Notes under the pieces: generated by a model
What the model saw: only the letters and a program-made list of their open reading frames with translations
What the model was told of the DNA's origin: nothing
The model's database searches: none
Shown: one piece after another, positions 50,375 to 60,401 of the stretch
Layout of the letters: every line of letters starts with the position of its first letter
How positions within the stretch are numbered: position 1 is the first letter of the stretch
Virus record (IMG/VR): IMGVR_UViG_3300042445_000748
Location: 27,553-91,552 of that record
DNA length: 64,000 nt
From: a virus
Strand: one strand, 5' to 3'
Translations under genes and position numbers: made by a program

Positions 50375-51619
50375 CTAGTCTATTGGATATAGGTGGTAAA
50401 CAAGCACTCCGCTTGCATTTATTAGACCAAAAACTTCTCTACCAAACTCGTAGACATTTCTTTTTTCTTTAACAGAGTCTACTTTGTTTACTACTTCATG
50501 AACTTCTTGGTTATCAACAAATTTAACCAACTTGTCGCCAAGAGCAACGCTATCTGTCTTCATCATTAGATATTCTGCATCTCTTAAAATTAATATTTCT
50601 TCTGTATTACTTACTCTGTTATGAATGTCTTCATTAAATATTGTAGTATTTTCTACTTCGTGCATTTTTGTGTATGTAACTTTTGAGTTTATATTTTTAA
50701 TATTTGTAAGTGATTTAGATTTCCATAATCCTATAGTATCTATATTGGCAAGAGGCATTTCATCAAATACTGAAAGAACAAGTGTATCTTCATCTGTTAT
50801 ATCTTTTGCTTTTTTATATCCAGCGTCTGTTAGTATAAGCGAGTGTTCGTCAAAACATATTGGTGAGAAACCAAATACTCTGAATGGTGAAAAACCAAAT
50901 ACTCTGAATGGAGAAAATCCAAATACGGCGAATGGAGAAAATCCAAATACGGCAAATGGAGAAAATCCAAATACTTGGAATGGTGAGAAACCAAATACTC
51001 CAAATGGTACAAATGAAAATGTTGTAGTTATTTCATTTGATAGTGCAGAATATTCTGAGTTTCCATTAGCGTTAGTTGCATATACTTTGTACCGTTGTGC
51101 TGTTCCTGGTTCTTGTGCTAGTGCTGCAGAAGTTGTTGTTGCAGTATCTCCTGATTTACCGTCGTTTGATTCCCAATGATAATTTGTTATTGCTGATCCA
51201 CCGTTTGCTGGTGCAGTCCATGAAATTTGATCTTGATCAGCGTTTGGTGATGAAGCAGTTGGTGCTGCTGGTGTTGCTGGAACAGTTGTTGCTGTAATTG
51301 AATTTGATGCTGCTGATTCACCTGATGTTCCGTAAGTATTTGTTGCAGTTACTTTAAAAGTATATGCTGTATCTGATTGTAATCCTGTTACTGTAATTGG
51401 AGATGATGCTCCAGTGCCTGTAAAACTACCTGGGGTTGATGTAACTGTAAAGGAGTCTGCTGCATAGGTAGGGTCTGCTGTAAATGTTACTGTGGCTGCA
51501 CCATTATTATAGGCCCGACTTATACCAACATTTGTTGCTGTACCAATAGTTGGTGTCTTTGGCATTAAAAAGTCATTAGAGCCTTGAGACTTCTTACCTG
51601 CTTTTTTACCTATTGCCAT
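50375..51619 (-). CDS. FN3-repeat-Hint protein (adhesin with hedgehog/intein-type domain)
   Basis: A 414-residue modular protein. Two fibronectin type III domains occupy residues about 23-112 and 114-200. Six octapeptide units VFGFSPFx (residues 208-254) follow. The last unit reads VFGFSPI and its variable position is Cys255, the first residue of a 160-residue Hint domain. Block A is ICFDEHSLILTDAGYKKAKDI. A central block is SNTEEILILRDAEY with GDKLVK. The end is VYEFGREVFGLI..GVLVYHLYPID. The usual C-terminal His-Asn is missing, and the block B His appears to be Glu340. Cys255 is the only Cys. So N-terminal cleavage or a thioester is conceivable, splicing is not. No other gene except the one at 59511 resembles it. 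Confidence 0.8.
   Translation of the reverse strand: MAIGKKAGKKSQGSNDFLMPKTPTIGTATNVGISRAYNNGAATVTFTADPTYAADSFTVTSTPGSFTGTGASSPITVTGLQSDTAYTFKVTATNTYGTSGESAASNSITATTVPATPAAPTASSPNADQDQISWTAPANGGSAITNYHWESNDGKSGDTATTTSAALAQEPGTAQRYKVYATNANGNSEYSALSNEITTTFSFVPFGVFGFSPFQVFGFSPFAVFGFSPFAVFGFSPFRVFGFSPFRVFGFSPICFDEHSLILTDAGYKKAKDITDEDTLVLSVFDEMPLANIDTIGLWKSKSLTNIKNINSKVTYTKMHEVENTTIFNEDIHNRVSNTEEILILRDAEYLMMKTDSVALGDKLVKFVDNQEVHEVVNKVDSVKEKRNVYEFGREVFGLINASGVLVYHLYPID
50858..50998 (-). repeat. Six 24-base tandem coding repeats (VFGFSPFx)
   Basis: The segment encoding residues 208-254 of the FN3-Hint protein is a run of 24-base units, the sixth truncated by the Hint domain. The units differ mainly at the eighth codon (Gln, Ala, Ala, Arg, Arg) and at synonymous positions. 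The same architecture is found at 59994-60134. Confidence 0.9.
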
Positions 51620-51650: not shown

Positions 51651-53543
51651 TTATGCAGTTAAATCGCCGTATACAACCCAGGTGTTAGTTGCTCTCTTGA
51701 ATAGAGTGCAAGATGACCACCGTGTACGTAATTTGAGACCTGGTGTAGCATTTACTGTTACTCCTGCGTCTCCTGCGATTGTTACTTGACCTGTACCAGT
51801 TTGAAGAATATCAAGTGATGTTCCAATTGGGAAGGCTACTGCTGAATTAAGAGGAATAGTTAGTGTTGTTGCACTAGCACTATCCATTTCTATTAAGTCG
51901 TCTCTTTCAGTCAATGCTGACAGAGTATAACTTGCTGTCTTTTGAATAATTGGTGTCCGTGAAGGTACACCTTCTAATCTTTGTGTACCGTCTGCAAATA
52001 CGATTCCGTTTGCAGTGATGTCTGATGTTGCAGTGATTGAGTTTGCCTCAAGTGTCAAAAGTGCCAAGACATCTAGTGAACCTTGTCCAAAGTTAACTGT
52101 AGTTGCTGGCTCAGTTGTAACACCATCAAACAATTTCCATTTACCGTCTGTAACGTCTTTGACGATACCAGCATGTTTTTGTGTTCCATCATTATAAGAA
52201 ACTACCAAACCTAGATCTGTTACGTTGTTAGCATTTGTGTGTCCAAGTTGTAACATGGTATCTTCAATTTGTAATTGTGTTGCTGATACTACTACGTTAG
52301 ATCCGTTGACAATAAAGTTTCCATCAACTGTTAAATCTTGATCAATTGTTACATTTCCAGTAAAATCTGCTCCTGAAAGGGATGCTAGATTTCCTAGTGT
52401 TGTTACAAGGTTTGTAATTTTATCTTGATTGATTGTTCCTGATATAGAGTTATTTGTAACAGAGTTATCAAGTGGTGTTCTTGCATCAGAAAGTCTTGCA
52501 TCATCTGTAAGAACTACTGCCAAGGTATTTAGAATACCGTGTACGTTTGATGTATCAGATTCGTGATTGCTTAAATCTGTTAATGTTACAAGTGTTGCTG
52601 TATTTGATATACCGTGAACATTTGTTATTTCTAGATTATGATCTGAAATTGCATTATCTGTGTATTGTTCTAAATCTGTAACTGCATTTCCTAATTCTTG
52701 TTGAAGATCTATTACTGCATTTCCAACCACATCGTCTGCATAATCATTAGCAGCATTAGCAAAAGAAAGATCTGCATTGTCTAAATACAAAACTACGTTT
52801 GCAATTGCACAATCTGTATAATCTTCTAAAGCCACTATAGCGTTATCTAGACCCTCTTGTAAAGAGTTTGCAATGTCGTTTATGTTATTTGATAGTGTAT
52901 TAATATTGTTGTCTACATATTCATATGTCTCATCTTGAGCATTGCTGATGCTATTTGTTATAGTTAAAAAGAAATTTTCATCTTCATTAATAGAGTTTGC
53001 TAATTCTTCAAGGGTGTTTAGTGCTTCTGGTGCAAGCCCTATCAGATTAGCAACTGCGTTATCTGTATAATCATTTGCATCTGCTAAAGCATTGCCTGCC
53101 GCTAAATCAGCGTATGTTTCTAGAGTTGAAACTGCATTAGAAACTGCGTTGTCTGTGTAGTCTTCTGCATCGCTTAATGCGTTTCCTGCTGCAAAGTCAG
53201 CATATTCTTCTAAATCTGAAACTGTATTTGCTACTAAGTTACCTACATCTGTTGATCTAGCAATGCTAGTTGGAATTTGTGCTGTTGGAACTAAATTGCT
53301 TTCATCTAATGTGGCAACACCGTTTGCTGCACCTTTTTGTTCTAATAAAATGTAATCGTCTAGGTTTCCGCCTAGATCTTCTATATTTTTAAAGTATGGC
53401 AAATCATCCCATGCTGTAGAGTTGTCACCTATTTTAAATTGTCCTGTGTCGGTTTCAAAACCAATTTCTCCAGAACCCAGAGTAGGGTTAGCATTAGCCC
53501 ACTGTGTAGCAGTTCCTCTACGTTGTAGCATCCTTGTTGCCAT
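51651..53543 (-). CDS. Tail fibre with Mtd-like N-terminus and shared C-terminal domain
   Basis: A 630-residue protein. Residues 1-52 (MLQRRGTATQWANANP, then GEIGFETDTGQFKIGD) match the N-terminal domain of phage tail-attached proteins such as the major tropism determinant. Residues about 90-330 are Ala/Asn/Asp-rich helical repeats (NALADANDYTDNAV), suitable for a trimeric stalk. Residues about 360-500 are beta-rich. The last 65 residues (VAFPIGTSLDILQTGTGQVTI ... NTWVVYGDLTA in outline) match the C-terminus of the protein at 60411. This should be a receptor-binding fibre. Confidence 0.7.
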   Translation of the reverse strand: MATRMLQRRGTATQWANANPTLGSGEIGFETDTGQFKIGDNSTAWDDLPYFKNIEDLGGNLDDYILLEQKGAANGVATLDESNLVPTAQIPTSIARSTDVGNLVANTVSDLEEYADFAAGNALSDAEDYTDNAVSNAVSTLETYADLAAGNALADANDYTDNAVANLIGLAPEALNTLEELANSINEDENFFLTITNSISNAQDETYEYVDNNINTLSNNINDIANSLQEGLDNAIVALEDYTDCAIANVVLYLDNADLSFANAANDYADDVVGNAVIDLQQELGNAVTDLEQYTDNAISDHNLEITNVHGISNTATLVTLTDLSNHESDTSNVHGILNTLAVVLTDDARLSDARTPLDNSVTNNSISGTINQDKITNLVTTLGNLASLSGADFTGNVTIDQDLTVDGNFIVNGSNVVVSATQLQIEDTMLQLGHTNANNVTDLGLVVSYNDGTQKHAGIVKDVTDGKWKLFDGVTTEPATTVNFGQGSLDVLALLTLEANSITATSDITANGIVFADGTQRLEGVPSRTPIIQKTASYTLSALTERDDLIEMDSASATTLTIPLNSAVAFPIGTSLDILQTGTGQVTIAGDAGVTVNATPGLKLRTRWSSCTLFKRATNTWVVYGDLTA

Positions 53544-58938: not shown

Positions 58939-59514
58939 ATGAAAAAAGATAAAAAATTTTTAATAGGATTGCTCGCAAGTCTTGGATTGTCTTCAGTATT
59001 CTTGAATATTTCTAATGCTCAAGGTGTTGAAACTAACCTGAAAAACGATCAGTATACAACATTTACCGCTGAGGCGGTTTTTTTGCTTTCTAGGCCAGAT
59101 CACTTAGATAAGCCATCTAGAGATAATGTAAGGACCCTTGCTGAATATCAGGATAAAGGACAACTTACTGATATTGAACTAAAAACTTTGCTGTCTGCTT
59201 GTGGTTTTGAAAATAAACACCTAGTAGAGGCTTGGGCTATTGCTAAAAAAGAATCAATGGGTAACGCCTTGGCTTTTAATGGCAACAAAAGCACTGGAGA
59301 CAAGTCATACGGATTATTTCAAATAAATATGATTGGTGATCTTAATGCTGATAGAAAAGAAAAATATAATTTAGACTATACTAGTCAACTTTTAAACCCA
59401 TCAATTAATTGTCAAGTTGCTTATATTATGAGTGATGGTGGTAACAATTGGGGACCCTGGAAAGGTATAACTTCAAAAACTAGAGAGTTTATGTATCAAT
59501 TTCCTAAAGATTAA
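58939..59514 (+). CDS. Secreted lytic transglycosylase / endolysin candidate
   Basis: The only plus-strand gene. It encodes 191 residues. A signal peptide covers about residues 1-27 (basic KKDKK, then a hydrophobic LIGLLASLGLSSVFL stretch, NISNA). The C-terminal half is an SLT/lysozyme-type domain with catalytic Glu105 in KKESMGNA, then YGLFQINM (124-131) and GNNWGPWKG. It should cleave peptidoglycan glycan strands and could act as a secreted endolysin or as an extracellular wall-degrading protein. It has a consensus promoter and AGGAGAG, and converges with the Hint gene, whose stop codon overlaps by 4 bases. No holin is adjacent. Confidence 0.8.
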   Translation: MKKDKKFLIGLLASLGLSSVFLNISNAQGVETNLKNDQYTTFTAEAVFLLSRPDHLDKPSRDNVRTLAEYQDKGQLTDIELKTLLSACGFENKHLVEAWAIAKKESMGNALAFNGNKSTGDKSYGLFQINMIGDLNADRKEKYNLDYTSQLLNPSINCQVAYIMSDGGNNWGPWKGITSKTREFMYQFPKD

Positions 59515-60401
59515 TCTATTGGATATAAGTGATATACCAAAACGCCGTTAATGTCTAATAGTCCAAATATTTCTCTACCAAATTCATAGACGTTTCTTTT
59601 TTCTTTTATTGAATCTACTTTATTAACTGTTTCATGAATTTCTTTGCCATCTACAATTTTAACTATTTTATCTCCAAGAACTACACTGTCTGTTCTTTCC
59701 ATAATATATTCATTATTTCTTAGTATTAATATTTCTTCAGTGTTACTTATCCTATTTTGTATATCATCATTATAAACTGTAGTATTTTCTACTTGATTTA
59801 CCTTTATATATGTTACTTTTGACTCTATGTTTTTAACATTTGTTAATGATTTAGACTTCCAATGTAAAATAGTGTTTATATTTGCCATAGGAATTTCATC
59901 AAATGTTGACACAATAAAGGTATCACTGTCTGTTATTTCTTTTGCTTTTTTATATCCATTAGTTGTCAATACTAATGAGTCTTCATCAATACATATTGGA
60001 GAAAATCCAAATACTGTAAATGGAGAGAAGCCAAATACTCTAAATGGAGAAAATCCAAATACAGCAAAAGGAGAAAAACCAAAAACACTAAAAGGAGAAA
60101 ATCCAAACACCTGAAATGGAGAAAATCCAAACACCCCAAATGGTGTAAATGTAAATTGTCTAACTGTTAAGTCAACTGGAGTTTCATAATCTGCTGCCGT
60201 GGTAACTGCAGGAGTTTGTTCAATAACTTTTCCATCATTTGCGGCCTCTGCCTCTTCTCCAGAAACTGAAGTAATTACGTTTCCTAAAGTAAATCCTTCT
60301 GATACAACATCTGCTTGTGCTTGTGCACTGGTTCTGCCAATAAAGTTAGGAAGTAATTTCATTCCTTTTGCTACAACGTATTTAACTAATTTTCCAAACA
60401 T
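59511..60401 (-). CDS. PASTA-repeat-Hint protein (wall-binding with hedgehog/intein-type domain)
   Basis: A 296-residue modular protein. After a short hydrophobic segment (LVKYVVAKGMKLL) comes a PASTA domain at about residues 17-80 (LPNFIGRTSAQAQADVVSEG, then VIEQTPAVTT), a type known to bind peptidoglycan. Six octapeptide units VFGFSPFx (residues 90-136) follow, then a 160-residue Hint domain from Cys137 that has the same length as in the FN3-Hint protein and the same end (GVLVYHLYPID). The matching block B position is Glu222 rather than His. The Shine-Dalgarno is GGGGGTTGTC before ATG 60401. It is the last gene of a fibre operon. Confidence 0.8.
   Translation of the reverse strand: MFGKLVKYVVAKGMKLLPNFIGRTSAQAQADVVSEGFTLGNVITSVSGEEAEAANDGKVIEQTPAVTTAADYETPVDLTVRQFTFTPFGVFGFSPFQVFGFSPFSVFGFSPFAVFGFSPFRVFGFSPFTVFGFSPICIDEDSLVLTTNGYKKAKEITDSDTFIVSTFDEIPMANINTILHWKSKSLTNVKNIESKVTYIKVNQVENTTVYNDDIQNRISNTEEILILRNNEYIMERTDSVVLGDKIVKIVDGKEIHETVNKVDSIKEKRNVYEFGREIFGLLDINGVLVYHLYPID
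59994..60134 (-). repeat. Six 24-base tandem coding repeats (VFGFSPFx)
   Basis: The second copy of the octapeptide cassette, in the PASTA-Hint gene. The variable eighth residues are Gln, Ser, Ala, Arg and Thr, then Cys137 of the Hint domain. Copy number, order and length match the cassette at 50858-50998. Confidence 0.9.

Follow-up and report, generated by a model that had tools for sequence, protein, structure and literature searches.

A Hint-fold domain with a replaced active site looks like an exchangeable tip on phage tail-type proteins

Self-cleavage is what Hint domains are known for. Here we describe a Hint-fold domain that, judging from its sequence and those of its relatives, looks like a swappable fibre tip whose chemistry of self-cleavage has been changed or lost. 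It forms the C-terminal part of two proteins encoded in a stretch of viral DNA of 64,000 nucleotides (the whole stretch is called the window below), and our best explanation, to which we assign a probability of roughly 0.55, is that it is a retained, non-splicing Hint tip on a modular tail-appendage protein. A Hint domain that sits at the swappable end of a tail protein, with both catalytic histidines exchanged and with a cysteine that is never lost in one clade, amounts to a natural experiment in switching off or rebuilding this chemistry.

Gene, domain layout and fold

The open reading frame of interest starts with ATG, is preceded by an AGGGGG stretch that resembles a Shine-Dalgarno sequence, and lies among genes of tail-fibre type. 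It is a real gene. Its parts, the convergent neighbouring gene and a paralogue in the same window are as follows.

59511..60401, minus strand: PASTA-repeat-Hint protein, an ORF of 296 aa
60162..60353, minus strand: PASTA domain, residues 17-80 (Pfam PF03793, E=3.6e-6, above cut-off)
59994..60155, minus strand: aromatic/proline repeat tract, residues 83-136 (five VFGFSPFx units, one VFGFSPI, and a leading FTFTPFG)
59514..59993, minus strand: Hint-fold domain, residues 137-296 (AlphaFold model, Foldseek matches in the PDB, and profile matches to a BIL domain and the RadA intein)
59991..59993, minus strand: Cys137, Hint position 1, invariant in the window's clade (59/59)
59736..59747, minus strand: block B Ser219-x-x-Glu222 in place of T-x-x-H (family alignment and HMM alignment)
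59529..59534, minus strand: Tyr290-His291 in place of the C-terminal His-Asn (family alignment and HMM alignment)
58939..59514, plus strand: secreted lysozyme-like gene, convergent (SLT_3, E=1.3e-14)
50375..51619, minus strand: paralogue of 414 aa with FN3 modules and with the same repeats and Hint domain (77% identity over 214 aa)
50858..51019, minus strand: repeat tract of the paralogue, residues 201-254
50378..50857, minus strand: Hint-fold domain of the paralogue, residues 255-414, with the same Cys / SxxE / Tyr-His site

The PASTA match scores 27.3 bits against a curated cut-off of 23.2, which bears out the PASTA domain claimed in an earlier, sequence-only reading of this DNA. A PDB search with the PASTA part alone returned no match, and Pfam gave no match to an S74 domain in the protein. 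Judging from the family to which it belongs, the module would be expected to bind the cell wall (peptidoglycan or muropeptides).

That reading also counted six VFGFSPFx octapeptides. Five are indeed complete, but the sixth is truncated to VFGFSPI and abuts Cys137 without a gap, while the partial unit FTFTPFG heads the array. At the DNA level a 24-bp unit is repeated in tandem 5.6-6.4 times with 82% matches, and therefore the repeats are not a product of chance. In several relatives (L034, L030, L084, L085 and others) the length of the repeat unit shifts (VFGFSPFx, FFxPPx, FFPPFFPP) and the aromatic/proline make-up stays constant. Matches of the low-complexity repeat of the window protein to viral spikes in the PDB search were rejected as compositional.

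The stop codon of the lysozyme-like gene overlaps that of the Hint gene, an arrangement that is kept in L006 and L007. L006 additionally carries, at positions 1-1711 on the minus strand, three small adjacent genes that by eye resemble 2-oxoglutarate/Fe(II) oxygenases of the prolyl-hydroxylase type and lie upstream of a collagen-like fibre gene. The sequence-only reading was silent on the second Hint copy in the window. This paralogue contains an fn3 domain (Pfam, E=5.7e-9) and probably a second FN3 domain. Beside it, at 51651-53543 on the minus strand, is a fibre gene whose N-terminal region matches Mtd_N, the major tropism determinant domain (Pfam, E=1e-11).

An AlphaFold (AF2) model of residues 137-296, built from an alignment of 44 sequences, has a pLDDT of 95.9 and a pTM of 0.90. 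All 29 Foldseek matches to the PDB at E<=1e-3 are inteins, BIL domains or hedgehog domains, with CDC21-1 inteins and BIL2 as the best of them, and the TM-score of the model to 1at0 and 6tyy is 0.70 (query) and 0.76 (target). A search with a family profile recovered the C. thermocellum BIL domain (E=2e-5) and the Pho RadA intein (E=2e-4). In the full-length AF2 model, residues 1-135 have a pLDDT of about 28, and we assign no structure to the PASTA and repeat regions from that model.

If the 160-residue domain were instead an unrelated fibre tip that begins with a cysteine by chance, one would expect the outcome of the single-sequence searches, in which Pfam, PHROGs and the PDB yielded no Hint match at threshold for the C-terminal domain. 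The nearest signal from a single sequence was NCBIfam TIGR01445 (intein_Nterm) at E=0.041, with position 1 of the profile aligned exactly at residue 137. This reading conflicts with the high-confidence model whose matches are all to Hint domains, with the BIL and intein matches of the family profile, and with relatives that carry the full canonical motif set. We consider it extremely improbable and, as far as prediction can decide, already refuted. By model, Foldseek and profile matches alike, residues 137-296 are thus predicted to have the fold of the HINT superfamily. The sequence-only reading had proposed a Hint-like domain of 160 residues from Cys137 onwards and had named a structure prediction of this segment as its check, and both the proposal and the check came out in its favour.

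Residue replacements at the active site

Autoprocessing Hint domains are characterized by Cys1, a T-x-x-H motif in block B and a C-terminal His-Asn pair (PMC7664689). Both copies in the window keep the cysteine at position 1, where Cys or Ser is expected, and neither has T-x-x-H in block B; they carry Ser-x-x-Glu there and Tyr-His at the C-terminal site, with His in place of the terminal Asn. The register of these residues comes from a MAFFT alignment of the family that includes relatives with the histidines, and it agrees with the HMM alignment to the Pho RadA intein, in which Ser219 is paired with Thr, Glu222 with the block B His and Tyr290 with the penultimate His. The protein differs from an intein, which would have C-terminal His-Asn followed by Cys, Ser or Thr and a C-extein, in that Tyr290-His291 is followed only by LYPID before the chain ends at residue 296. 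It differs from a BIL domain in lacking both the block B His and the C-terminal HN, which relatives such as L084 and L130 do have, and it differs from a Hedgehog Hog domain in that TxxH is absent and the chain stops at residue 296.

The replacements are not confined to the window. Among 102 distinct relatives, the block B residue is Glu in 59, His in 33 and Gln in 10. A penultimate Tyr is seen only together with block B Glu (49/59), and block B His is always paired with a penultimate His (33/33). Cys1 is retained in 99 of the 102 relatives and in all 59 of the Glu type, in which Asn211, Glu222 and Asp244 are also invariant; no conserved partner cysteine for Cys1 exists in this clade. Given this invariant set of four residues, the site has been replaced by another fixed set rather than having decayed at random. 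Family members outside the window's clade keep the canonical site (Cys1, T/SxxH, HN). Three relatives (L134, L141 and L145) show the reverse of the window's clade, with SxxH and a C-terminal His-Asp pair and without Cys at position 1.

These observations bear on the idea that the domain is a dead relic, a leftover fold without a function of its own in which Cys137 serves folding only. The loss of the His/His/Asn set would agree with such a fate, as would the apparent dispensability of the domain, since some relatives have other C-terminal ends. Nevertheless, the set of residues fixed in 59 sequences, the dN/dS of 0.10-0.18 in comparisons inside the window's own Hint group (purifying selection) and the maintenance of two genes per genome in many relatives all argue against it, and we judge a relic to be quite improbable. 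In other pairs of the family, the dN/dS of the Hint domain is higher (0.25-0.57), and this counts against the best explanation given above.

The Glu/Tyr type is compatible with a single clade (55 rows, p-AU 0.69), and the replacement may represent a single evolutionary change. A bulky residue precedes Cys1 in 47 of 49 Glu/Tyr proteins versus 6 of 33 His/His proteins. When a coupling of Glu222 with Tyr290 or with the bulky residue at position -1 was tested on the tree, there were 3 contrasts on supported branches. Because the Glu/Tyr proteins are compatible with one clade, the correlations within it are not independent evidence of coupling and describe a feature of that clade only.

What chemistry might remain

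Asn cyclisation requires a terminal Asn. Since both window copies lack this residue, neither splicing nor C-terminal cleavage is expected. N-terminal cleavage, or a thioester at Cys137, is possible and indeed plausible from the residues present, given that Cys1 is invariant and that some inteins without the block B His or the penultimate His still work (PMC6333167, PMC7664689). The block B His is the most conserved intein residue and normally assists the N-S acyl shift; a bulky residue at position -1 can compensate for its absence in an intein, and the CDC21-1 inteins naturally lack it (PMC6333167).

Such precedents could be taken to mean that autoprocessing is active, with Cys137 forming a thioester with residue 136 under the strain of the bulky -1 residue and with the aid of Glu222, after which the fibre end would be set free or hydrolysed, or would become linked to a nucleophile of the fibre or of the host surface. 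The invariant Cys1 of the clade, which has no conserved partner cysteine, and the bulky -1 residue fit this scheme, and both also weigh against a non-splicing, retained tip insofar as they would suit a working N-S acyl shift. Further points in its favour are the inteins that function without one or the other histidine (PMC6333167, PMC7664689) and the presence of CDC21-1 inteins, with their natural lack of the block B His, among the nearest folds in the PDB (PMC6333167). On the other side, neither window copy has either of the catalytic histidines or the terminal Asn, the bulky -1 residue is supplied by the aromatic repeat itself, and the sequence gives no hint of an acceptor or of a covalent attachment to the wall. 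On balance we consider active autoprocessing possible but doubtful. Unlikely, in our judgement, is a new catalytic Hint class (Cys1 / S-x-x-E / Tyr), in which Glu and the strained bulky -1 residue would replace both histidines and phage fibres would use a C-terminal thioester or cut for maturation, release or covalent bonding of the fibre. The sequence-only suggestion of self-cleavage, or of a thioester by which the protein would attach covalently, finds no support, as Glu222, Tyr290 and His291 stand in place of the His/His/Asn set in both copies.

With the retained, non-splicing tip that we prefer, the following history can be proposed. A siphovirus with kinship to the Stanwilliamsviridae would have two modular tail appendages, in each of which an N-terminal module (PASTA, or FN3-like in the paralogue) and an aromatic/proline tract hold a C-terminal Hint domain as an exchangeable tip. 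The ancestral Hint domain would have had an intact site (Cys1, T/SxxH, HN), of the type still found on the fibres of relatives, where the domains that keep the histidines probably cut at their own N-terminus. In the lineage of the window, the block B His would have given way to Glu and the penultimate His to Tyr, and in the window copies the terminal Asn to His. Splicing and C-terminal cleavage would thereby have been lost, along with efficient autoprocessing, and the domain would most likely remain attached to the virion as a tip that is fixed but still recombines. Retention of Cys137 would serve some purpose, be it a slow N-S acyl shift that proceeds unaided by His or another role of the thiol.

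Module exchange, family and host

The PASTA module of the window protein is 90% identical to that of L120 and the Hint domain only 41%, whereas in comparison with its own paralogue the N-terminal modules are unrelated (27%) and the Hint domains are 72% identical. Between the window and L004, the flanks are mostly less than 10% different, the repeat and Hint region differs by 20-32%, and the difference is 7% at the end of the gene. Similar divergence peaks are seen in three other pairs (L035/L120, L035/L116 and L024/L031). No such peak covers the repeat and Hint region when the window is compared with L003, which counts against our preferred reading. Four relatives (L111, L123, L124 and L127) combine the same PASTA and VFGFSP shaft with a C-terminal end that is not a Hint domain and that is Cys-rich in the last three. 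The repeat and Hint module thus moves from one protein to another, and divergence often peaks in it, as one would expect for the tip of a fibre. Swappable C-terminal ends are a usual trait of fibre tips that contact receptors, and it is this exchange and variability that suggest a tip role for the Hint domain.

The repeats may be the site of recombination, because the tracts are similar in two proteins that a single genome encodes. In two cases (L006/L096 and L007/L105), the PASTA protein and the FN3 protein from the same genome have repeats that are more alike than those of other genomes, and this pattern suggests concerted evolution. Separately, the Hint regions of three contigs (L007, L009 and L010) show amino-acid differences and zero synonymous ones; a diversity-generating mechanism was considered, and the numbers are too small to claim one.

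The family comprises about 100 distinct members, all on phage contigs, and its common plan consists of an N-terminal module (PASTA or FN3), aromatic/proline repeats and a C-terminal Hint domain. A family match is present in 25 of the 26 phage records searched, with more than one match in 13 of these records. When 84,980 species genomes were scanned twice with patterns of seven to ten residues, no bacterial carrier was found.

The phage is akin to the Stanwilliamsviridae of Streptomyces by its portal (47%) and DnaE-type polymerase (about 55%), and its gene order from ribonucleotide reductase to tape measure is the same as theirs, in agreement with a Stanwilliamsviridae-like phage. This order and the tail-fibre-type neighbours lend support to a tail context for the protein. 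A search of Stanwilliamsviridae phages gave no match to the Hint gene. The G+C content is 33.9%, and our guess is that the host is an AT-rich actinobacterium, which would fit a wall-binding PASTA module.

Comparison with known systems

GenBank already contains phage fibres with canonical Hint domains. Phage NCTB (BN7874_136) and Erwinia phage pEa_SNUABM_5 (gp108) resemble the window in having a C-terminal Hint domain on a tail or fibre protein with a short stretch after it, and NCTB has three Hint genes close together. Unlike the window proteins, they keep TxxH and HN, have Gly before Cys1, and carry a collagen-like N-terminal module without aromatic repeats.

BIL domains (C. thermocellum 2lwy) share the fold and Cys1 with the window protein and are reached by its family profile. 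Canonical BILs have a block B His and a C-terminal HN, where Glu and Tyr-His are found here. The hedgehog Hog domain (1at0) is likewise similar in fold and in having no C-terminal splicing. However, the Hog domain keeps TxxH and has a sterol-recognition extension, both of which are absent from the window protein. The CDC21-1 inteins (6rpp, 6rpq) are the top structural matches and also miss the block B His (PMC6333167), but they are true inteins inside a host protein, whereas the window domain is C-terminal and lacks HN. The S74 autopeptidase, a fibre chaperone, is a C-terminal domain of virion proteins that detaches itself (PMC7824862). It offers a parallel in the way of working for those relatives that keep the histidines, with an unrelated Ser-Lys chemistry.

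We found no paper in the open-licence literature that describes the canonical phage-fibre Hint domains or the BFVD proteins of the present family. The sequence-only statement that no phage protein of this architecture had been described therefore holds for that literature, but not for the databases, where unremarked BFVD relatives and the canonical Hint domains on the collagen-like fibres of NCTB and pEa_SNUABM_5 are present. What is new is the recognition of a family, its module exchange and the Cys/Glu/Tyr site that is fixed in it. Two BFVD proteins of uncultured Caudovirales phages, A0A6J5NY54 (PASTA_pknB) and A0A6J5NYB8 (Fibronectin type III), belong to the same family by structure, with Hint identities of 41% and 35% and TM values of 0.92 and 0.88, respectively. 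Both are named after their N-terminal modules, and the Hint domain is absent from the name. This type of tail protein is common in environmental phages, where it goes by no other database label than 'PASTA' or 'fibronectin'.
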